42,963 nt of DNA, taken from Acidobacteriota bacterium. GTDB lineage: Bacteria > Acidobacteriota > Aminicenantia > Aminicenantales > Saccharicenantaceae. Every line of letters starts with the position of its first letter. Position 1 is the first letter of the stretch. Where the stretch lies: NCBI GenBank assembly GCA_014894455.1, contig JADBLN010000016.1, positions 1 through 42,963 on the forward strand, read 5' to 3'. Below are positions 159-16,195 of this stretch, piece after piece. The translations under genes were made by a program, and so were the position numbers. The notes under the pieces were generated by a model. The model worked only from the letters and a program-made list of their open reading frames with translations. It did no database searches and was not told the origin of the DNA.

Positions 159-1400
159 ATGTCAGAAATTGGAGATCCATTGGAGAAGCTCCGCTATGGG
201 TCAACGGGACCTTTTATGGACGGTTTCGCGCGCGATTTACTCAACAAGGATTTTTCAAGAAGGATCATCTGCGCTCACCTCAGAGCAGCAACGCATTTTA
301 CCCATTGGGCGGCGAGTCTAGATCTATCTCTTTCCGACCTAAAAGAGGATTGCCTCGAATCTTTTTGTGCCCACCTCCGCGGCTGTCAATGCAAGGGGAC
401 CTATAAGGACAAATCCTCTCACACAATCGCGGGAGCAAGGCGCTTTCTTGCCCACCTTCAAAACCAGGGAGTCAATCTCCCGACAAACGTCGTTAAGAGG
501 CATCCTATCATCCATCCGTTACGGATGAATTTTGAACATTGGATGCGGACACACCGAGGGGTGATGGACTCCACCTTGGCAACGTACCGGCGTTTCATAA
601 CCGCACTTCTCGAGCAGATAGGAGATGATCTCTCGCGTCTTAATCCGAGCGAGATCCGAGCGTTTATTCTGAAACATTCCGGCTCGGTCAACATGCCCTC
701 TGCGCGTTCGCTCATCACGGCAACCCGGATGTTTTTACGCTATCTGGTGGCAGAAGGCTTATGCCCGTCTGATTGGGGACCGGCTATTCCTCGCGTCGCA
801 TGCTGGCGGCTCTGCACATTGCCACGGCATTTTTCTCAAGAGGATATCCAAAGGATCGTTACCGCCTGCCACGACGCCTCTGTAAAAACGGGGCTCCGCA
901 ACCGGGCCATTGTGCTTCTGGGCGCCCGCATGGGACTTCGGGTAGGCGAAATCATCAAGCTTCGTTTGATCGATATCGATTGGCTAGGAGCGAGCCTTCG
1001 TGTCCTTGGGAAAGGAAGACGTGAGGCCCGTATGCCTTTGACCCAGGAAGTAGGCGACGCTCTCCTGACTTATGTGGAACAGGCTCGTCCTCCGCTCCAG
1101 TCCGACCACCTTTTTGTCACCGCTTATCCACCATGGCGGCCTTTGGGGGCCAGTAGTTCAGCCAGCAGCATCGTGGCCCGCCTGATTCGCCGAGCTGGTG
1201 TAAAGCCGGCAACCCGCGGAGCAGCCCATTTACTGCGGCATTCCGCCGCTACGGAGATGCTTCGACAAGGAGTTTCACTCCAGGACATCGCAACGATCCT
1301 GCGTCACCGGTCTTTGGAGACCACGGCCATTTACGCTAAGGTCGATTTCAACGCGCTTCACTTGGTCAAACAACCCTGGCCGGGGGGTGAGTCATGCTGA
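159..1400 (+). CDS. Tyrosine recombinase/integrase, first gene of RIT trio
   Basis: ARMGLRVGE (Arg I), HLLRHSAATEML (HxxR), LRHRSLETTAIYAKV (H...Y); RBS-like aggagg upstream of ATG. Confidence 0.92.
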   Translation: MSEIGDPLEKLRYGSTGPFMDGFARDLLNKDFSRRIICAHLRAATHFTHWAASLDLSLSDLKEDCLESFCAHLRGCQCKGTYKDKSSHTIAGARRFLAHLQNQGVNLPTNVVKRHPIIHPLRMNFEHWMRTHRGVMDSTLATYRRFITALLEQIGDDLSRLNPSEIRAFILKHSGSVNMPSARSLITATRMFLRYLVAEGLCPSDWGPAIPRVACWRLCTLPRHFSQEDIQRIVTACHDASVKTGLRNRAIVLLGARMGLRVGEIIKLRLIDIDWLGASLRVLGKGRREARMPLTQEVGDALLTYVEQARPPLQSDHLFVTAYPPWRPLGASSSASSIVARLIRRAGVKPATRGAAHLLRHSAATEMLRQGVSLQDIATILRHRSLETTAIYAKVDFNALHLVKQPWPGGESC

Positions 1401-2290
1401 TAAGCGATTTCGAAACGTACCTTTCCCTTCGCCGAGCCGGCGGATTCGACCTTAGAAAGGACATGTTCCTTTTGAGAAACTTCGCGAGGTTTGCCGGCGA
1501 ACGCAATGAAACCCATGTGAAAACGTCCCTGGCGATTGAATGGGCGGCTAAAACAACCTCTGTCGCGCAACGCGCCCATCGCCTTAAAGCGCTCATTCGA
1601 TTCGCTCAATATCTACGACTTGAAGACAACCGGCACCAGCTCCCGCCAGGCGGAGTTTTTGGACATCACCGGCAACGCCCTGTTCCATACATCTTCCAAA
1701 ATGCTGAGGTAAAGGCCTTGGTCGAACACACAGCCGGTCTCCCATCCTTCGATCCTTTGCGTAGACATACTTTTAGCTTCCTTTTTGGGCTGTTGGCCGC
1801 AACGGGTCTCCGGATTTCCGAAGCCCTCGCCCTGCGTCTTGATGATCTGACGGAGAATGGCCTTTTAATCCGCAGGACCAAGTTTCACAAAAGCAGGATC
1901 CTGCCACTGCACGAAACCACCGCTAAGGCGCTTGAAACCTATTGCCTCTATCATCGGCCTAAGTTGGAAAACGACCATCTCTTTATCTCTGCCGTTGGGA
2001 AGACCCTCAGTTACTTTGTTGTGCGAGAAGCACTGCGAGCCGTCGCCAAGAGCATGAGACTGCCTGCTCGGGCGGCACGTCTTCATAACTTTCGGCATAC
2101 TTTCGCGGTCAGAGCCTTAGAAAACTCTCCGGAAAGCCGTGATCGTATCGGTCGGCATATGCTTGCCGTTTCCACTTATCTTGGTCATGCCCGAGTATCA
2201 GATACCTTTTGGTATCTGCGGAGTACTCCACAACTGATGATTGACATCACCAAGGCCGGCGAGCGTTTCTTGGAAGGAAGAACAGCTTGA
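1394..2290 (+). CDS. Tyrosine recombinase/integrase, second gene of RIT trio
   Basis: AATGLRISEAL, HNFRHTFAVRAL, YLGHARVSDTFWYLR; overlaps preceding gene by 7 nt. Confidence 0.92.
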   Translation: MLISDFETYLSLRRAGGFDLRKDMFLLRNFARFAGERNETHVKTSLAIEWAAKTTSVAQRAHRLKALIRFAQYLRLEDNRHQLPPGGVFGHHRQRPVPYIFQNAEVKALVEHTAGLPSFDPLRRHTFSFLFGLLAATGLRISEALALRLDDLTENGLLIRRTKFHKSRILPLHETTAKALETYCLYHRPKLENDHLFISAVGKTLSYFVVREALRAVAKSMRLPARAARLHNFRHTFAVRALENSPESRDRIGRHMLAVSTYLGHARVSDTFWYLRSTPQLMIDITKAGERFLEGRTA

Positions 2291-3267
2291 ACCCCATAGC
2301 CCCCCATATCAGCATGTTCTTGCAACAACGATTACCCCACGAACGGCAAGCCAGTCAAAACACTTCCGACAGCTATGCCTATGCCTTCCTGCTTCTGTTC
2401 GCGTTCGCCAGCAAACAATACAAGGTTTCGCCATCTGCGCTTCTCCTGGAACAGATCGATGCTCCTTTGGTGATGGCTTTTCTCGAACATCTTGAGAAAG
2501 AAAGGAATAATAGTCCTCGTACCCGCAATGCCCGTCTTGCCGCGGTCAAATCGTTTATGCGTTTCATCGAATATCGCGTGCCATCAGCTTTAGATCAAGT
2601 TCGCCGTATCATGGCCATTCCCGTCAAAAAAACAGACGTGCCACTTGTCAACTATCTTACTCAAAGCGAGATCCAGGCTCTGCTCGATGCGCCGGACGAA
2701 AACACACTTGACGGCATCAGGGACCGGGCGATGTTACATGTGGCCTATGCGGGAGGGTTGCGTGTTTCAGAACTCGTAGGATTACGCATGGAAGACCTGA
2801 GCTTTGAACCAAGATTAATCATCCGAGTGCGCGGAAAAGGGCGAAAAGAGCGAGCCCTGCCTTTATGGAAGGAAACAGGCCGTGCGCTGCGGGCTTGGCT
2901 GGCGATTCGGGAAAAGGCCGCTGTTCCCGAGGTGTTTCTCAACTCTCGCGGGCAACATATAACACGCTCTGGATTTTCTTACATACTGAAAAAACATGTC
3001 ATGACCGCAATCCAGCGGTCTCCCTGTCTGGCCAAGAAGCGTGTATCCCCCCATGTCCTTAGGCACACCTGTGCCATGATCATGCTGCAAGCAACCCACG
3101 ACATACGAAAAGTCTCCATCTGGCTTGGCCATGCAACTCTGCAGAGCACCGAAGTATATGTTCAGGCTGACCCCAACGAAAAGCTGGAAGCTATCGAAGC
3201 CATTACCCCCCCCACTGTTCCGAAAAGGCCGGTTCCAACCTCCCGATCGTCTAATCGCCCTTATTAG
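2287..3267 (+). CDS. Tyrosine recombinase/integrase, third gene of RIT trio
   Basis: YAGGLRVSELVGL, HVLRHTCAMIML, WLGHATLQSTEVYVQ; TTG start in a TTGA overlap with the second gene stop. Confidence 0.9.
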   Translation: MNPIAPHISMFLQQRLPHERQASQNTSDSYAYAFLLLFAFASKQYKVSPSALLLEQIDAPLVMAFLEHLEKERNNSPRTRNARLAAVKSFMRFIEYRVPSALDQVRRIMAIPVKKTDVPLVNYLTQSEIQALLDAPDENTLDGIRDRAMLHVAYAGGLRVSELVGLRMEDLSFEPRLIIRVRGKGRKERALPLWKETGRALRAWLAIREKAAVPEVFLNSRGQHITRSGFSYILKKHVMTAIQRSPCLAKKRVSPHVLRHTCAMIMLQATHDIRKVSIWLGHATLQSTEVYVQADPNEKLEAIEAITPPTVPKRPVPTSRSSNRPY

Positions 3268-4889: not shown

Positions 4890-5561
4890 TCAGTAGAACT
4901 TCTTCTCGATATCGGCCAGCAGGTACAACACGTCGCCTATCCCGATGAACCCCTTCTTCGGCGGATCGGTGAAAAGGCAGTCCCCTTGCATGGCCCGCAC
5001 GATCTTGAGGGTCCTCCACTCCGCCGGTTTCTTTGGTTCCCCGGGATCGAAGTGGAACGCCCCGTTGTGTGCGGCGGCGTTTCGACAGTGGCGCAAGAAC
5101 TGCCAGAGTGGATCTCTATTATGTTTTTTCCCAGTTATCGTCCAAGCCAGTATGAGTAGACCCCCAGCGGAAATGCGATTGAAATATTCCAATGCAACGT
5201 CAGGTTCATTAAATACGTTATCAGCCAGTGCTTCACTGTCCACTCCGATCGACTTGCCACATGATGATAACAATTCGGGTTTAAAGATCATGATAGGTTT
5301 TTCGTGTGATATCGCCCTCTCGATTGCTCTTCGATATCCGGCATTAATGTTTTTTAGCAGTATAGAGATTTTTTGCTCACGCGTTAGTCTTGATTTGGCG
5401 TATTTTTTATCAAGATGGTCAAAGAGCTGACATATTCCTCTTGATGCTAAATCAACGAGGCCATGAACCTGACAAAGGTAGGCTGCGACTAAAGGATAGA
5501 ACGGCTTTTTAGGATCAAATTCTAGCTGAGGTTTAAGGATGTTCTTTAGCATTGCTTGCAA
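4890..5561 (-). CDS. HEPN-like protein
   Basis: 223-aa ORF, mostly helical, motif LRHCRNAAAHNG = Rx4H signature. Confidence 0.6.
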   Translation of the reverse strand: MQAMLKNILKPQLEFDPKKPFYPLVAAYLCQVHGLVDLASRGICQLFDHLDKKYAKSRLTREQKISILLKNINAGYRRAIERAISHEKPIMIFKPELLSSCGKSIGVDSEALADNVFNEPDVALEYFNRISAGGLLILAWTITGKKHNRDPLWQFLRHCRNAAAHNGAFHFDPGEPKKPAEWRTLKIVRAMQGDCLFTDPPKKGFIGIGDVLYLLADIEKKFY

Positions 5562-5617
5562 CTACCAGACGACTCCTCCCGCCCCGATTCATTTTCTATT
5601 AGGTTCGTTCTCTGTTA

Positions 5618-5850
5618 TCAGTGTTTCTTGTCTTTTGGCGGGCAGGGATCATGCCCAAAACTATCTTTGTCTTGAATCTTCCCGTCCCTGCCGTGGATGA
5701 CCAGTTCAGTGCCTTGCTTCTTGGCAATATCTCTTCCGGCCTTTTCTATCACGCCTTCGTTGGGGTAATTACAGTAAGACGCTTGTTGCCTTCGCCTCTT
5801 ACTCCCCAGTCTTTGCCCACAGGCACCACGTGTTGGCTTTTCTTTGACAT
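5618..5850 (-). pseudogene. DUF2188-like protein, frameshifted
   Basis: Minus strand reads MSKKSQHVVPVGKDWGVRGEGNKRLTVITPTK then, in another frame, VIEKAGRDIAKKQGTELVIHGRDGKIQDKDSFGHDPCPPKDKKH*; length 233 nt, one short of 78 codons. Confidence 0.75.
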
Positions 5851-5940
5851 AGCTGTCCTTCCTTTCGCTATCAATATGGAATCACGTGGACGAGAGGAGG
5901 CGGTCTACCTTTACCAGCTTCGCGTCTATCCCTTCCCGCC

Positions 5941-7410: not shown

Positions 7411-8238
7411 GTCGAGCATGTGAGTGAAGTCATGGGAGTCTCCTAGCGGCGGGCTTGTCAGGTTTTGGACCAGCCCCGCTCAACCCAGAGGCACGTCCGG
7501 AAGGTACCCGATGACGAGGAGTGTTTAGTGAGCCAGATCGTCAGCCTGGCAAGTCAGTACGGACGGTATGGCTATCGTCGGATTACCGCGTTACTTCGTA
7601 ATGACGGTTGGAGGGTGAATCACAAGCGGGTGGAGAGGATATGGCGGCAGGAGGGGCTGAAAGTGCCGCAAAAGCAGCCCAAACGAGGACGTCTATGGCT
7701 CAACGACGGATCGTGCATCCGTCTCCGCCCAATGAAGAAGGACCACGTCTGGAGTTATGACCTGGTTATGGACAGGACCTCGGATGGGAGGCCGATCCGG
7801 ATCCTGGTCATTATCGACGAATATACGAGGGAATGCCTGTCGATGTATGTTTCCCGGAGGATCAGGTCCGAGGATGTTCTGGAACAACTCTACGAACTGT
7901 TCCTGACGCGGGGAGTGCCTGAACATATTCGGTCGGACAACGGCGCGGAATTCACGGCGAATGCGGTCAGGAACTGGCTCGAAGACCTTGGCGTAACCAC
8001 ACTCTTCATCGAGCCCGGGAGCCCGTGGGAAAACGGCTACGTCGAATCCTTCATCGGAAAGCTCAGGGATGAGCTGCTCAACGGCGAGGTTCTTGACACG
8101 TTAGCGGAAGCGAAGGTCCTTGTCGAGGGCTGGCGAGGGGAATACAATCGCTTCAGGCCTCATGGCTCCCTAGGCTATAGGCCGCCGGCCCCGGAGGCAT
8201 ATTTGGCTGGAAAATTCACTCAAGGGCTGGTGCATTGA
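7378..8238 (+). pseudogene. IS3-family transposase OrfB, in-frame TAG at 7444-7446
   Basis: Reads KLLSPAKKGRAVEHVSEVMGVS*RRACQVLDQPRSTQRHVRK... then intact rve DDE core (YDLVMDRTSDGRPIRILVIIDEYTREC, SDNGAEF, SPWENGYVESF). Confidence 0.8.
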
Positions 8239-8252
8239 TCGGGGGCGGGTCA

Positions 8253-8751
8253 TCGCCTGGCAGCTCTGCCGGGCCATGAAGGCCGAGGACGTGAAGAACA
8301 CTCTGGATATGGCCATCGCCAAAACCGGGGTCGAGCATATCCAGGTGGTCCAACGGCCAAGGCTTCTCAGCGACAACGGGGCCTGCTTTATCTCCCATGA
8401 GTTGAAGAAGTACCTCGAGAGCCATGAGATCCGCCATATCCGGACAAAAGTGTATCACCCCATGACCCAGGGGAGGATCGAACGTTATCATCGCTCGATG
8501 AAGAACCTGATCTTTTGGACAATTACTATGCCCCCACCGAGTTGACCGAGAGGATCCGGGAGTGGGTGGACTATTACAATCACCAGCGATATCACGAGGC
8601 CATCGACAACGTGACACCAGCGGACAAGTATTATGGAAGGGACCCCCTGATCCTGGAAAAGAGGGAAAAGGTCCGCCAGGAGACCATAAAGGCTAGGAGG
8701 GAGTTGAGCCGGATGGCAATGCTTGAAGCCTTGCCAAACGGCGTCAGCTGA
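8253..8751 (+). pseudogene. 3' remnant of another DDE/rve-type transposase, 5'-truncated and frameshifted near 8515
   Basis: ...RPRLLSDNGACFISHELKKYLESHEIRHIRTKVYHPMTQGRIERYHRSMKN then, frame-shifted, LDNYYAPTELTERIREWVDYYNHQRYHEAIDNVTPADKYYGR. Confidence 0.8.
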
Positions 8752-9078
8752 ATTATCATGAGAAACGGAATCCGTAAGCTTAGGGAATCAGCACGCGAGT
8801 CCGAAACCGCTTGACGACGCACAAGATTGGGTCCCTGGCCCACCCGAAACATGCTTTTTTTCACGCTCACTCCCGTCCTGGGTGGCTATCCAGCAGAAAA
8901 CGACAACAGCCCCTATGGGGGGGAAGTATGAGGTGCCCCCCATTGGTTGGACAGTTTAGTGGCTGGTTGAAGGTGCATAGCGGGCCCGCCGGCCGCGGCC
9001 ATTGTAACTTCTTCTAAACCCGAACGCCATCGATTTCGGGATCCTCGAAGCGAAGGCGTTTGATCTGGTTGGAACATG

Positions 9079-9595
9079 TCAGGCCATTCCCGCCGCCGTC
9101 GGCATCATGGAAGCCGAGGTCCCGAAGTACACTGCGGACGGCGTCCGATAATCCAGGGCTTCGTGAAGCCGCTCCTCGTTGTAAAAACGGAAGTACTCCC
9201 CGAGCCGTTTTTTAGCTTCCGCTACCGTTTGATATTCGTGCAGAAACACCTCCTCGTATTTCACCGAGCGCCACAGCCGCTCGATGAAGATGTTATCGTA
9301 GACCCGGCCCCGGCCGTCCATGCTGACCTTGATGTCATGCTTTTCCAAAAGTCCCGTGAAGTCGGTGCTCGTAAATTGCGAGCCCTGGTCCGTGTTGAAA
9401 ATCTTCGGCTTCGAGATTTGAAGCGCCTGCCGAACGGCGTCCAAACAGAAGCCCTTGTCCAGCGTCGTCGAAAGCTCCCACGACAACACGTACCGGCTGT
9501 TCCAATCCATGACGGCCACGAGATAAACAAACCCATGCGCCAGCCGGATATACGTGATATCCGTGCACCAGGCTTGATCTGGAGCGTTAATCGTA
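9079..9595 (-). pseudogene. IS3-family transposase OrfB, C-terminal DDE part (3' side of insertion)
   Basis: NAPDQAWCTDITYIRLAHGFVYLVAVMDWNSRYVLSW...IFNTDQGSQFTS...NIFIERLWRSVKYEEV. Confidence 0.85.
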
Positions 9596-11029
9596 GAGCT
9601 TGTTTCAAAGTTACGTGATGGCGTTTGACATGGACGAAAAAAAAGGGCTACAACCCTCCATGATGTCAACCACAACACTAGGAGGAGTAGCCCAATGGAC
9701 GACCTCGAAATCAAGATCGCCATCATCTATAAGGTACCACAAAGCAAGCTCACGCTCAACGGCCTTCTGCGCGGGCTGGAGCACGACCGGGATGAGATCA
9801 TGAGAGCTGTGCTCGGCCGCATCCTGGACGCCTTGGAAGAGAAGGCCAAGGGCGATTATCCTCCGGGTCGTTATGTCCTGAACGGCCATCAATCGACGGC
9901 CAGGAACCTCATGACGTCGTTCGGGCGAGTTCGTCACCGGCTGGCTCAGGTCTTGGATCGGACGACGGGGGCGGTCGTCTTCCCTCTGGCTGAGCGGTTG
10001 AAGATCGAACCTTATCGGCAGTACCAGAGGGAGACGCTGGAAGCCCCTGTCGGTCAGGCGATTCATCTGTCCTACCGCTTGGCCACGAAGGAGACGCGAC
10101 GCCTTCGCGGTCACGGGCCGAGTACCAGCACGCTCTGGCGCCGGCTCCAGGAGGTGGCGGAATCTCAGGGCGGTTGGCCGTTGCTCAAACATCGGCCGTT
10201 TACGTTTCTGATGGTCGACGGGACCAAGGTCCGGCTCCAAGACAGAGGGACCTCCCTGGAACCGGCGGAGATGCGTTGGGCGTGGGCCTCGGAGGGCGTC
10301 GGTAAACCGTTTGAATGGGTGGGGTTCTGGGTGGGCAAGGACTGGAGAACGATTCGCCGGGACCTCAGCCGCCGTCTGAACTACGGGCGTCTTCAGATGC
10401 TGTTTTCCGACGGCGAGTCGGCGATCGAGGACAACCTCCGCTCGGCGCGGATGGAGTGTCAGCGGTGCGTCTGGCATGGCCGGCACGACTTTCGTTTCCT
10501 TCTCTACGCCGATGAGGTTAAAGGCCCCGCCCAACGAGAGTTCCTGGAGCTGTTGAACCGCAATCCCCTCTTCCACCTGCGGCAGGCGGAGCTGGAAACG
10601 TTGAAACCCGAGGACGAGCCTCTGGTCCGCAAGCTCGCCCGAACGATCCGGAGCGGCTTCCGTGAGCTGCTGGCGGCGTTGCCGGAGAGCCGTTACCCGA
10701 AAACGCGGACCTACCTCCTGAACTTCTCGCAGCAGGCCTTGGCGTTTTTCGACTACTGGCTGGACCACCAACGCTGGATCCCTTTCACCACGAACATCGC
10801 CGAGTCGGCCTTCAGCCGGGTGGTGAATCGGATCAAACGAGTCGGCCGCCGCTGGAGCGAGGCCGGACTCCTGAACTGGCTGACGATAGCGATGGGCAAG
10901 ATCTTTCACCCCGCGTTGTGGACAAGTCTGTGGCGCCAATATCTCCAGCTTCATCGCAGCTTGCACCTTGCGTCTCTCATCTCCAAATACCGGTGGATCG
11001 ATGCCATCACGTAACTTTGAAACAAGCTC
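9596..11029 (+). mobile_element. 1434-bp IS, single DDE ORF, 27-bp IRs, 8-bp TSD; family tentative (ISH6-like / Mutator-type)
   Basis: gagcttgtttcaaagttacgtgatggc at 9596 mirrored by gccatcacgtaactttgaaacaagctc ending 11029; TSD taatcgta at 9588-9595 and 11030-11037. Confidence 0.88.
9695..11014 (+). CDS. Transposase, DDE type (ISH6/Mutator-like, tentative)
   Basis: 439-aa ORF; FLMVDGTKV...MLFSDGESAIEDNLRSARMECQRCVWHGRHDF...NIAESAFSRVVNRIK. Confidence 0.85.
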   Translation: MDDLEIKIAIIYKVPQSKLTLNGLLRGLEHDRDEIMRAVLGRILDALEEKAKGDYPPGRYVLNGHQSTARNLMTSFGRVRHRLAQVLDRTTGAVVFPLAERLKIEPYRQYQRETLEAPVGQAIHLSYRLATKETRRLRGHGPSTSTLWRRLQEVAESQGGWPLLKHRPFTFLMVDGTKVRLQDRGTSLEPAEMRWAWASEGVGKPFEWVGFWVGKDWRTIRRDLSRRLNYGRLQMLFSDGESAIEDNLRSARMECQRCVWHGRHDFRFLLYADEVKGPAQREFLELLNRNPLFHLRQAELETLKPEDEPLVRKLARTIRSGFRELLAALPESRYPKTRTYLLNFSQQALAFFDYWLDHQRWIPFTTNIAESAFSRVVNRIKRVGRRWSEAGLLNWLTIAMGKIFHPALWTSLWRQYLQLHRSLHLASLISKYRWIDAIT

Positions 11030-11360
11030 TAATCGTAAGTCCATTCAACAGATAAGGATAAACCTTGTGATCCGAACCGTTCCACGACAGCCGCGGCTTC
11101 GGATAGATGGCCACGAGGCCCATCAGCCTCATCAGCCGGCTGACCCGCTTGCGGTTGACCTCGTAACCCTGCGTCCACAGCCAGGCTTTCATCCGCCGCG
11201 CGCCGTAAAACGGATGCCGCATAAACTCCTCGTCAATCAGCCGCATGAGCAGAAGGTTCAATTCCGATTCGCCTTCGGGTTCGTAATAAAACGACGAGCG
11301 GGGCAAGTCCAATAGTTCGCATTGTCGGACGATGGGCATGCTGGGTGATACCGGTTCCAC
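11007..11360 (-). pseudogene. IS3-family transposase OrfB, N-terminal part (5' side of insertion)
   Basis: MPIVRQCELLDLPRSSFYYEPEGESELNLLLMRLIDEEFMRHPFYGARRM...YPYLLNGLTI, then runs into IS end. Confidence 0.85.
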
Positions 11361-11377
11361 GAAAGTCCGCTTTTCTT

Positions 11378-11746
11378 CTACAGGAGCTGCTGTGACTTTT
11401 TTTTTAACCAGTCGAGCTCGACCTTGAGCTGACCGATCTGCCGGAACAGTTCCGCAACCAGCTCATCCTGAGATTTCTCATTCTGAGACTTCTGCTGGGA
11501 GAACATTTCCGGAAGCCGTTCCAGAAGCCGGGATCGCCATTGGCGGATCTGATTGGGATGGACGCTATACCCCGAAGCGATCTCGGTGATCGTTTTTTCT
11601 CCCTTGACCGCCTCCAGAGCGACCTTGGCCTTGAAAGCTGCATCGTGAGTTTTTCGCATCGTAACCATCTTATACCATACCTCCTTTGAAGATATGGCGG
11701 GTCTTGATGCACCTAAATTCCCTGTCCAGTTTTTTGGGACCCCCAC
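11378..11746 (-). CDS. IS3-family transposase OrfA (true start likely MVTMRKTHDAAFKAKV)
   Basis: HTH: DAAFKAKVALEAVKGEKTITEIASGYSVHPNQIRQWR; ends at an A9 slippery tract (11397-11405). Confidence 0.88.
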   Translation of the reverse strand: MGVPKNWTGNLGASRPAISSKEVWYKMVTMRKTHDAAFKAKVALEAVKGEKTITEIASGYSVHPNQIRQWRSRLLERLPEMFSQQKSQNEKSQDELVAELFRQIGQLKVELDWLKKKSQQLL

Positions 11747-11990: not shown

Positions 11991-13102
11991 ATGGGTCGAA
12001 AAGAGTTGCTCTTTAAGAACTACGAGCTCCGGGCGGTTCTTGAAGGACACCGGAAGGAAGCGGAAGGTGCGGTAGTCGAACTTCCGGCAACTGAGGTCGC
12101 GGCCGAGACCGAGGAATCGGTCCTCGACCGGCTTGAGGAAGAGTACCGCGTTGTCCCGCTTGAGCTACTCGAGGACAAAGCGACCGTGGAGCAGGAGGAA
12201 GCACAGGCCGATGTGAGCGGGGATCCACTCCGCTTCATTCGTGATCGAAGCCAGCCGTTCTACGTCCCTGGTCAGCGCGTTCGATATTACGTGCCGTATC
12301 GCGGCGACCAGGAACTTTGGCGCTGCCGGCCGAGCAGATACACGTTGAATCCGCCGTCGGCTGATGTTGCCAAGGACGAAATCGTCTTCGAGTTCACGGT
12401 ACCAAGCGCAGATATCGCCCAAACGAGAGGATGGTTCGACACGGCCATCGCCAGCGTAAGGCAGTGGATAAGCTTTTCAAAGCAAGACGTCGAAATGCAC
12501 AACCAGCAACTGCGGCCCATCCTGCGAGATGCGCTCCGACGACGTCGCAATCTACTTGCGACGGCTGCGAAGGAGGTGGAGGCGCTCGGCCTGCCGGTCC
12601 GCAGGAAGGTGGGCCCAGCCCCAGAGATACCGATGCCGGTGGCCGCACCCTCAGCGCGCACTGCCCGCGGTCGTATGCCTCCTCCGGAAACGCAAGAGTA
12701 TGACGTAGCGCTTTCCTTCGCTGGCGAGGACCGCGAGTACGTCGAGCAAGTCGCGACCTTGCTTCTCAACGCCGGCATCAGGGTCTTCTACGACAAGTTC
12801 GAGACCGTCAAGCTATGGGGCGAAATCTCGCCGACCATCTGGGAGAGATCTACGGCAAGCATTCGAGGTTTGTCGTGCTCTTTGTGTCGAAAAATTATCC
12901 GGCCAAGGCTTGGCCTACGCACGAACGTCAGAACGCGCAAGCCCGAGCTATCCGTGAAAACCGGATGATCCTCCTGCCAGCCCGCTTTGATGACACAGAC
13001 ATACCGGGGTTGCCGTCTACCATAGGTTACATCGACCTAAAGAGTACATCCCCTGAAGCGCTCGTGGCACTCATCAAAGAGAAACTAAGAGAGGAAACTT
13101 AA
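11991..13102 (+). pseudogene. TIR-domain protein split by frameshift (or phase-variable gene)
   Basis: Frame 1 N-domain plus EYDVALSFAGEDREYVEQVATLLLNAGIRVFYDKFETVKLWG; frame 2 from 12815 continues RNLADHLGEIYGKHSRFVVLFVSKNYPAKAWPTHERQNAQARAI...; junction at GGGG 12817-12820. Confidence 0.8.
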
Positions 13103-13121
13103 CTCTAGGTGCCTTATTAAG

Positions 13122-14000
13122 ATGGAACCAGTACCGTCGACAATAACGAAGACATACCCAGCCCGCGGCCCACTTCAACAGTTTCGCTTTATAGAAAGCT
13201 CTGCTTTCAACTGCTTCCGCTGTGGTGATTCGAAGAAGTCCAAGTTGATTACAGTATATGGTGGGGATTGGTCCAGGAAACTCTGCAACGGATGCTACGG
13301 CCGGCTCCTATCGCTGTTTGAAATCAAGGCCGGAATAATCCCGGATGATCAAAGGGTCGAAGCGTTGGTTGGAACGCTCTTAGCAACTGTCGCACTCGAC
13401 GATCAACGTCAAGCAGAGAGGATTCTTAAGGCCTCAGAGAAGCGAGCACAGGAGCTTTCCCCAGAGGCAGTGAGGTTCATTGCTACCGCCGAGCACATAG
13501 CAGGGCAGCTACAAGATGAACCCCAATTAGAATGGTCACCTGCGGTTATTGGTCTGTGTAAAGGGGTCGAAGCGGAGGTCGTGTCAAGGATGCTGAGGCC
13601 GCTAGCAGTGCTTGCCAGCCATGAGGAATTGAACGACGACAGGAGCGACAAGGACTTTGGGAGAATTGCAGCGTTCTGTGAGGACCCAAATAGGAAGCCT
13701 CCGGAACTGGGGGCGTTCGCACATTTCCTTCAGACGTTCATCAATAGCCACCGAAGACGCGAAACGAGCGTACTATTGGGCGCATTTAGGCGATTGGCCG
13801 CAGGATGGACAGGTTCAACTTGGATCCTATCTCTCGATGGGCTCCATGCTGCTCTGGCATCGTTGACCACGGATTTCAGAAATCGAGCTGCTCACATTGA
13901 TGAGCTCGGTAGGGCCGACTACATACAGTGTCGAGAGCTCACCATTGGCTCCGAAGGCATCCTTTGGAAGCTGGTGCTTGCCACCAAGCCCCACCGATGA
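13122..14000 (+). CDS. Zinc-ribbon plus HEPN-like protein
   Basis: CFRCGDSKKSKLITVYGGDWSRKLCNGC (CxxC...CxxC) and C-terminal FRNRAAHIDEL (Rx4H). Confidence 0.65.
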   Translation: MEPVPSTITKTYPARGPLQQFRFIESSAFNCFRCGDSKKSKLITVYGGDWSRKLCNGCYGRLLSLFEIKAGIIPDDQRVEALVGTLLATVALDDQRQAERILKASEKRAQELSPEAVRFIATAEHIAGQLQDEPQLEWSPAVIGLCKGVEAEVVSRMLRPLAVLASHEELNDDRSDKDFGRIAAFCEDPNRKPPELGAFAHFLQTFINSHRRRETSVLLGAFRRLAAGWTGSTWILSLDGLHAALASLTTDFRNRAAHIDELGRADYIQCRELTIGSEGILWKLVLATKPHR

Positions 14001-14069
14001 AAAAGCTCCGTTTCAGATCTGCAGATCATTGAGGGCCGACTAGCTCTGCAAGTTGGAGAGACAAGGGCA

Positions 14070-14849
14070 ATGGCTACCACCCCAAAGTCCGAAGCGCTGA
14101 TACCGGTTATATGTATCGATCCGTCTAGCGTTACTGGGGCGGAGATGTTTAATCTTAATTCCTGGCCAAGTGATAGCAAAGGCGTCATCCAATCGTGCTG
14201 GGCCGAATATTCCGTGCTACACCATTGTGTCGCCCAAATATCAGACATGTGTAATGACGCCGAACGCCTATTGGCAATAAGCATTAAGACAATTCAACAG
14301 CAGTGGCACGCTGAGAGATTTGATCTCGAAAGAGTTGCCATATTTAGCGAACAGCCCGATCTACATATACGAATTGAAGCGTTTTTCTCGGGAGTGAAGG
14401 CCCTGTTAGACCTCTTAGTACAGCTCCTTTCCACTGAAAAAATCGTAAGTGAGGTCATTGACGGCTTCCACCGAACTGGGGACATCTACGGCGGCAGAGT
14501 CCTCAATACACTGAAAAACAACGCGCTAAAGAACAAGAAAGACGCGGCTGCAAAGCTGGATGCTTTGATTTCAGAACATAAAAAGCTTTGGATTGATCAA
14601 GTGGTTCTGGCACGTGATCAACTCATCCACCCCGATAAAGGAACACATCAACTGATGTTCCGTCTCGTATTTGAAGAGAGAGCCAACGCGCTCGTCTGTA
14701 TAAAGGCATATCCGCCGGAAATAGGCGCTACGCCGATGCATATTTACACGCAAGATATTTTGAAACAAGCTACCGTTTTCTCGATGAGCTATTTGGGGCT
14801 ATTGCGCGAGCGAGCATTATCCAACAACAGCATGGAGCCGACGCGCTAA
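14070..14849 (+). CDS. HEPN-like protein
   Basis: Helical; KKLWIDQVVLARDQLIHPDKG (Rx4H); C-terminal tail SNNSMEPTR derives from the attC-like sequence. Confidence 0.6.
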   Translation: MATTPKSEALIPVICIDPSSVTGAEMFNLNSWPSDSKGVIQSCWAEYSVLHHCVAQISDMCNDAERLLAISIKTIQQQWHAERFDLERVAIFSEQPDLHIRIEAFFSGVKALLDLLVQLLSTEKIVSEVIDGFHRTGDIYGGRVLNTLKNNALKNKKDAAAKLDALISEHKKLWIDQVVLARDQLIHPDKGTHQLMFRLVFEERANALVCIKAYPPEIGATPMHIYTQDILKQATVFSMSYLGLLRERALSNNSMEPTR

Positions 14850-14870
14850 AGTGTGCGGCTCATCTTGAGC
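14819..14870 (+). repeat. attC-like degenerate hairpin at 3' end of HEPN ORF
   Basis: ATCCAAC (RYYYAAC) at 14819; imperfect stem atg[g]agccg[a]cgcgc-taaa-gtgtgcggctcat with an extrahelical G; right box cttgagc lacks GTT. Confidence 0.35.
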
Positions 14871-14959: not shown

Positions 14960-16195
14960 CTATTTAATGACGGGAACCTTGTAGGGACGGCGCGGCCGTT
15001 TGGCCAGAAGCAGGTTGTCGACCTGCGTCACCCAGCGATAGCCGAAGTGGAAGGGCAGGGGCCTGACGTTTCCCGACGGGTCTTCGTAGGCCTGCCGCAG
15101 GTCTTTCTGCTCGACGTTGGTGAAATCCTTGACCGGGGTCGCGTACCGCCCGAAAAGGGTGACCTCCCAGCCGCCGCGCTTGAAAAAGCGGTAGGGTACG
15201 GCCGTGTCGTCCTCAAGCACGAACAGGCTCCGGTCGAGGATGAGCTGGCGCATGGTCGAGAAATTCTCCCATTGGAGAAGGTAGGACCCCGCCTTGACGA
15301 AGGTGGTCAGGTTCCCCAGGCCTTCGAAAAACCGGTAGAGGGGCGAGTTCACCCGGAAGGCCGTGTTCTCGACGTCGCAGGAGAAATAATAGACGCTGCG
15401 GAGAGCGGAGTCGCCCGGCTTCAGGCAGTCGATCCGGACTCCGTAGGGTCGGCGGGGGCGCTTGGCCAGGCGCTCGTAGGGGGTCTCCGTCCAGCCGCCT
15501 TGCTCGCCCGGGGCGAGACGCTTGACGTCGACGACGGAGTACCCTCCCCTCTTCAGAAAGAAGCCGATGACCGGCAGGGCCCCGTCCACGTTCCCCAGAG
15601 AATACGTGTCCATCATGTGCATGGTGATGAAGTAGCCGCGCTTGAGGAAATCCGAGGTCAAGGTGCCCAGGTCGGTGAAGAATTCCTGCCGTTCTTTCTC
15701 CGCATTCCGGGCGAAGTCCGGCAGGTTGCCAACGGGTTCAAGGCCCAGCAGGACGATCGTCGTCGCCCCGGGGAAGAGGACGAAGGCCGTGGCGAGATCC
15801 GGACCGCCGAAGGGGTAGAAGAGGGTCGCCGTCTTCTCCCGGACTTCCACGAGGTCGCTTCCGGCCCAGACCTTCATCGGCTGAAGGACTGCGGAATCAA
15901 ATTCCGCCCAAGCTTTGCCCGAGAGGGCCGCGAAGTCCTTCCAGGAGGCGTCCGCCTGCCAGGCCGCGTAGGACGGCGACTCCACGGGCAAGCCGGCGGC
16001 GAAGGCGAAGCGGTCGTCGAGCGCGCGGTCGACAGGCGGCGGCGCGGGGATGGAGCTCGGGGCCGCCGGGCCGGGATCTCCCGAGAGCGTCTCGCGGCCC
16101 GTGTCCCGGCGGTAGACGGCACTGGAAAGAAGGACCGCGAGGATGAGGAGGACCGGCCCCCCGACCGACGTTCGTCCTTTTCGTCGTTCGTTCAT
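14960..16195 (-). CDS. Hypothetical exported/membrane-anchored protein
   Basis: 411-aa ORF with N-terminal TM; codon usage like flanking genes; family not recognised. Confidence 0.7.
   Translation of the reverse strand: MNERRKGRTSVGGPVLLILAVLLSSAVYRRDTGRETLSGDPGPAAPSSIPAPPPVDRALDDRFAFAAGLPVESPSYAAWQADASWKDFAALSGKAWAEFDSAVLQPMKVWAGSDLVEVREKTATLFYPFGGPDLATAFVLFPGATTIVLLGLEPVGNLPDFARNAEKERQEFFTDLGTLTSDFLKRGYFITMHMMDTYSLGNVDGALPVIGFFLKRGGYSVVDVKRLAPGEQGGWTETPYERLAKRPRRPYGVRIDCLKPGDSALRSVYYFSCDVENTAFRVNSPLYRFFEGLGNLTTFVKAGSYLLQWENFSTMRQLILDRSLFVLEDDTAVPYRFFKRGGWEVTLFGRYATPVKDFTNVEQKDLRQAYEDPSGNVRPLPFHFGYRWVTQVDNLLLAKRPRRPYKVPVIK

Follow-up and report, generated by a model that had tools for sequence, protein, structure and literature searches.

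A widely mobile zinc-ribbon HEPN protein, a candidate abortive-infection RNase, in a strain-specific patch of an Acidobacteriota bacterium

Three neighbouring genes in the DNA analysed here (the window, 42,963 nt from an Acidobacteriota bacterium) raise the question of whether they act together as one anti-phage system or are separate pieces that came to lie side by side. The initial annotation had read them as a TIR protein, a zinc-ribbon HEPN protein and a second HEPN-like protein, and had inferred a single undescribed defence system.

Layout and chromosomal setting

We confirmed three coding regions at 11991-14849, all on the + strand and separated by gaps of 19 and 69 nt. All three genes are present, but the TIR gene is split across two frames rather than forming one ORF. 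The TIR call for gene 1 and the zinc-ribbon HEPN call for gene 2 (ZRH hereafter) hold, while HEPN in gene 3 is weak. The G+C content of genes 1, 2 and 3 is 58, 53 and 47%, compared with 64% for the backbone. The features are as follows.

11991..12704, + strand: N-terminal domain of the TIR protein, residues 1-238 (PADLOC PDC-S54 profile PDLC05036)
12705..13102, + strand: TIR domain, frame-broken at about 12800-12830 (TIR_2 in two frames; read-through match)
13122..14000, + strand: ZRH, intact zinc-ribbon and predicted HEPN protein of 292 aa (relatives 41-67% identical; AlphaFold model)
13143..13304, + strand: zinc ribbon of ZRH, residues 8-61, with C31/C34/C55/C58 (mt-LAF7 profile match; Foldseek top match 6yxx_EG)
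13878..13895, + strand: predicted HEPN catalytic motif RNRAAH of ZRH, residues 253-258 (invariant residues; helix position in the model; rule of PMC3710099)
14052..14058, + strand: core-like site GTTGGAG of a cassette 5' end, 11 nt upstream of the gene 3 start codon (pairs with 14819-14825)
14070..14849, + strand: gene 3, orphan HEPN-like protein of 259 aa (HEPN_Apea, E 0.14)
14613..14630, + strand: RDQLIH motif of gene 3, residues 182-187 (motif scan)
14819..14863, + strand: partial attC-like site (core ATCCAAC at 14819-14825; arms ATGGAGCC at 14832-14839 and GGCTCAT at 14857-14863)
14966..16195, - strand: first conserved backbone on the right, where synteny resumes (alignment of five same-genus genomes)

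Five same-genus genomes align with the window rightwards from 14966-14992 and not leftwards, and the strain-specific stretch holding all three genes stops about 100 bp before this conserved chromosome. Left of 14966 the five genomes mostly differ among themselves too, indicating a variable locus of the genus. Across 296 further genomes of the phylum, neither ZRH nor gene 3 was found. At the contig edge, three overlapping tyrosine-recombinase genes lie in a row (159-3267, + strand), resembling a RIT or GInt-type element, and the space between this trio and the TIR gene is occupied by an IS nest (7465-11746) in which several transposase frames are broken or overlap. The region is a pile-up of mobile DNA, where adjacency is a weak argument that genes function together.

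Co-occurrence of the three genes, and the nature of genes 1 and 3

If the three genes formed one system, the TIR protein would signal or deplete NAD+ and two HEPN RNases would respond, a scheme favoured by the shared orientation, the two gaps given above and the effector-type domains. The initial annotation had proposed to abandon this idea should homologues never co-occur, and that is what we found. In the set of loci fetched, no ZRH-bearing locus carries a relative of the TIR protein or of gene 3, and no locus bearing the N-terminal domain of gene 1 carries a ZRH relative, with the rarity of the ZRH family (about a dozen loci) limiting the test. For eight ZRH loci the complete genome or plasmid record was covered, and gene 3 is missing from these too. 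Since relatives of the three genes never co-occur in these loci, a single system is not supported; ZRH is a one-gene cassette elsewhere, the TIR gene is broken and the G+C content is unequal among the genes, and we regard the three-gene system as highly improbable. As for assignment by existing tools, genes 2 and 3 fall in no known system, but the N-terminal domain of gene 1 matches PDC-S54 of PADLOC.

This match covers residues 1-238 of gene 1 and positions 1-235 of the 410 in PDLC05036 (E 2.4e-45). The C-terminal nuclease part of PDC-S54 (profile 236-410) is not matched, and TIR_2 stands in that place. The ORF at 11991-12968 encodes the N-terminal domain and the start of the TIR domain (TIR_2 profile 1-33), and the ORF at 12815-13102, in another frame, encodes the remainder (profile 49-117) and retains the expected TIR active-site Glu, in WPTHE. 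Read through with an X at the break, gene 1 gives a full TIR_2 match above the cut-off (E 1.9e-17). The frame change reflects either a recent pseudogene or an assembly error. In plasmids of Thauera, Rhizobium and Nostoc and in other genomes, the N-terminal domain runs on into a PD-(D/E)xK-like segment, GKTDI...IAECKFW, and fusions of this kind are found at loci L023-L026, L038-L040 and L047; the PD-(D/E)xK-type assignment is a reading of the motif, the HSDR_N_2 match being weak (E 0.1). Thus, gene 1 shares its N-terminal domain with PDC-S54 and differs from it in ending, across a broken frame, in a TIR domain rather than a PD-(D/E)xK-type nuclease. Judged by these profile matches, it is a PDC-S54-type protein that has undergone an effector swap. 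About 650 sampled genomes yielded no second protein joining this N-terminal domain to TIR.

Effector swapping on a common N-terminal domain is typical of defence proteins. Because the effectors on the PDC-S54 N-terminal domain are swapped in this way, the domain is probably a sensor, and the exchange of nuclease for TIR argues for a general one. With respect to Thoeris, gene 1 is only weakly similar to the ThsB TIR protein, and the pairing of ThsA beside ThsB is not seen: PADLOC gave no ThsA-type match, and the neighbours of gene 1 are ZRH and gene 3. At one PDC-S54 locus (L047, 220-3605) the flanking genes encode a PIN-like protein and one whose C-terminus is of a TIR-like nucleotide-binding type. 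A literature search found no paper that names PDC-S54, and likewise none that names mt-LAF7, a protein discussed below.

Gene 3 is an open reading frame and does contain the RDQLIH motif described for it, but its HEPN_Apea match is below the Pfam threshold and it has no usable relatives. The chance frequency of the motif is ~5.6% and, since about 5% of shuffled proteins contain a motif of this kind, RDQLIH by itself is weak evidence. The structure model is unusable (pLDDT 41). Searches of plasmids, phages, viral contigs and about 650 genomes gave no relatives; one of the two weak genome matches (L057) proved to be a flagellar FlhB-like protein. Together the motif and the sub-threshold match make a HEPN protein plausible. 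The core pair around the gene, GTTGGAG and ATCCAAC, scores 19/21, a value reached in 0.5% of random placements, and short complementary arms are present at the 3' end, which lacks an intact right-hand core. Bottom-strand folding of the attC-like site is not above that of shuffled sequences. We also considered whether the gene 3 tail, NNSMEPTR, might be an attC that is repeated or carried on plasmids, but no further copy turned up in the genome, in plasmids or in viral contigs. From these sequence features gene 3, an orphan, is likely a decayed integron cassette remnant.

ZRH family and its mobility

Within the cluster, ZRH alone is clearly intact, conserved and recognisable as a unit. As initially described, it is a CxxC/CxxC protein (cysteines 31, 34, 55 and 58) with an Rx4H HEPN motif near its C-terminus; the ORF is intact, and both the cysteine ligands and RNxAAH are conserved. 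RNRAAH at 253-258 is its sole R[NDH]xxxH motif, and the chance of such a motif from composition alone is 5%. Relatives were identified in a Myxococcota MAG (67% identity), Xanthomonas (65%), Dechloromonas (65%), a Bradyrhizobium plasmid (59%), two prophages (57 and 56%), Adhaeribacter (44%) and a Streptomyces plasmid (41%), with fragments elsewhere. All aligned relatives that cover the motif share R253, N254, A256, A257 and H258, and the four cysteines are kept in nearly all full-length members; in one prophage copy (L030) the Gly after the second Cys is changed and the cysteines are retained. At two loci (L002, 8001-8876; L003, 8001-8873) the deposited ZRH starts downstream, at 8247 and 8121, such that the deposited proteins lack all or part of the ribbon. 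Pfam, NCBIfam and PADLOC, in the copies searched, hold no family covering ZRH. ZRH would therefore define a previously unnamed family, characterised by a CxxC/CxxC ribbon and a C-terminal HEPN motif, RNxAAH.

The AlphaFold model of ZRH (pLDDT 84.6, pTM 0.76) consists of a beta zinc ribbon (residues 8-54) and a helical bundle. In HEPN proteins the motif closes helix 3 and an acidic residue lies in helix 2 (PMC3710099). In the ZRH model, RNRAAH lies at the end of helix 241-257, followed by a loop and then the last helices, and the invariant E150 and E152 lie in an earlier helix, 139-164. Sequence and model thus show an Rx4-6H motif with a polar residue after the Arg and the HEPN helix order. Structure prediction, suggested as a check on the domain calls, bore out this helix order for ZRH but returned no HEPN fold match, and it was uninformative for gene 3. 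No known HEPN structure was among the significant Foldseek or profile matches of ZRH, for which only the monomer model was searched. HEPN families are very divergent. For these reasons, the missing fold match lowers the likelihood of HEPN membership and does not exclude it; the case for membership is built on motif, helix order and conservation, and we consider the prediction well supported.

The best solved-structure match of the ribbon is to mt-LAF7 of trypanosomes (profile E 2.8e-8; Foldseek E 0.013, probability 1.00). The two have in common the segment RGxLQ...FxCxRCG...S.L...W...C..CY. The likeness extends over only about 50 residues, the matched chain being 155 aa, and leaves the HEPN part of ZRH unmatched. 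A viral fold library gave no significant match. By profile, ZRH is related neither to gene 3 nor to the other Rx4H protein of the window. The latter, of 223 aa (4890-5561, - strand), has RNAAAH at residue 159, belongs to no Pfam or PADLOC family and is possibly another HEPN protein.

We examined integron core pairs of the form GTTRRRY / RYYYAAC around a single gene. In both Xanthomonas and Dechloromonas, GTTAGAC lies 10-11 nt before the ZRH ATG and the exactly complementary GTCTAAC just past the stop, a pair scoring 21/21 in a test anchored on start and stop, compared with 0.06% of random placements. In the Myxococcota MAG, ZRH lies between 43-nt palindromic direct repeats that are 86% identical (score 31; maximum of 15 in 486 random pairs). 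All three of these genomes, and none of 14 controls, encode integron integrases that score above the curated cut-off; the integrases lie far from ZRH or on other contigs. ZRH is the lone gene within these single-gene cassettes, and it stands alone in every locus. A complete attC site was sought in the window and in the relatives with strict and relaxed scanners, and none was found; the window copy of ZRH has no recognisable cassette ends, and no core pair was found around it.

ZRH is also carried on the Bradyrhizobium and Streptomyces plasmids and in two different prophages (L028 and L030), where it lies between head-tail and other structural genes, on the opposite strand in L028 (phage gene identities were read from translations). 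In both prophages it sits at about 5001-5890 next to related head-tail genes, its relative orientation being opposite in the two, which suggests a common cargo site. Taken together, these contexts indicate that ZRH spreads among very different bacteria as a single gene via integron cassettes, prophages and plasmids.

Possible role of ZRH

One of the nearest known counterparts is Tha. Tha is a prophage-encoded protein of 301 aa with a C-terminal HEPN domain (RNSIMH) that provides RNase-dependent abortive infection (PMC11087260). As described there, Tha-1 and Tha-2 of Staphylococcus aureus prophages resemble ZRH in size (about 300 aa), in being single genes, in the C-terminal HEPN RNxxxH and in being prophage-borne. 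They differ in having no recognisable N-terminal domain, where ZRH has a four-cysteine zinc ribbon, and ZRH travels in integron cassettes as well. Phage-defence genes have been reported among the cargo of integrons (10.1126/science.ads0915 and 10.1126/science.ads0768, as cited in PMC13092281). On the strength of the analogy with Tha and of these reports, ZRH most likely acts as a single-gene RNase of abortive infection, with the zinc ribbon as its gate. The HEPN part would be a metal-independent RNase acting as a dimer through R253, N254 and H258, kept inactive until the N-terminal mt-LAF7-type ribbon senses a phage-induced RNA or ribonucleoprotein state. Activated ZRH would then cut cellular or phage RNA, and the cell would halt, as with Tha. 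We consider it probable that the locus is a strain-specific patch of three separately mobile genes in which ZRH is such a stand-alone RNase, with both the RNase activity and the anti-phage role inferred.

The main rival, unlikely yet deserving of consideration, is that ZRH is a stress or addiction RNase, a dormancy toxin or one that stabilises its cassette, and not anti-phage. Its cassette location fits this, as does another HEPN family found in single-gene integron cassettes (PDB 3jrt), for which Anantharaman et al. proposed a dormancy role (PMC3710099). The ZRH profile matches no PDB HEPN chain up to E 10. However, ZRH cassettes lack an antitoxin-like partner, and occurrence in prophages and on plasmids would suit phage competition just as well. 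Neither is ZRH accompanied by the adjacent minimal nucleotidyltransferase of HEPN-MNT toxin-antitoxin pairs, as Pfam detected no such domain in neighbouring products.

The kinship of the ribbon to mt-LAF7, a mitoribosomal large-subunit assembly factor, raises two further readings. ZRH might act on ribosomes or pre-ribosomes with no defence role, for example as an accessory rRNA-processing factor, but it is found neither in the 296 further genomes of the phylum nor in 320 class relatives of Dechloromonas, and its contexts are mobile, making this very unlikely. A somewhat less remote, though still doubtful, idea retains defence: ZRH would represent a new class of defence RNase whose ribbon docks on a ribosomal or pre-ribosomal rRNA site and which cuts rRNA, tRNA or nascent mRNA upon perturbation by phage, the ribbon having been independently recruited to mitoribosome assembly in trypanosomes.

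Overall, these results replace an unsupported three-gene system with a testable one-gene candidate, a small and widely mobile zinc-ribbon HEPN protein. The cassette history of ZRH can be checked, and the relation of one of its domains to a mitochondrial ribosome assembly factor is unexpected.
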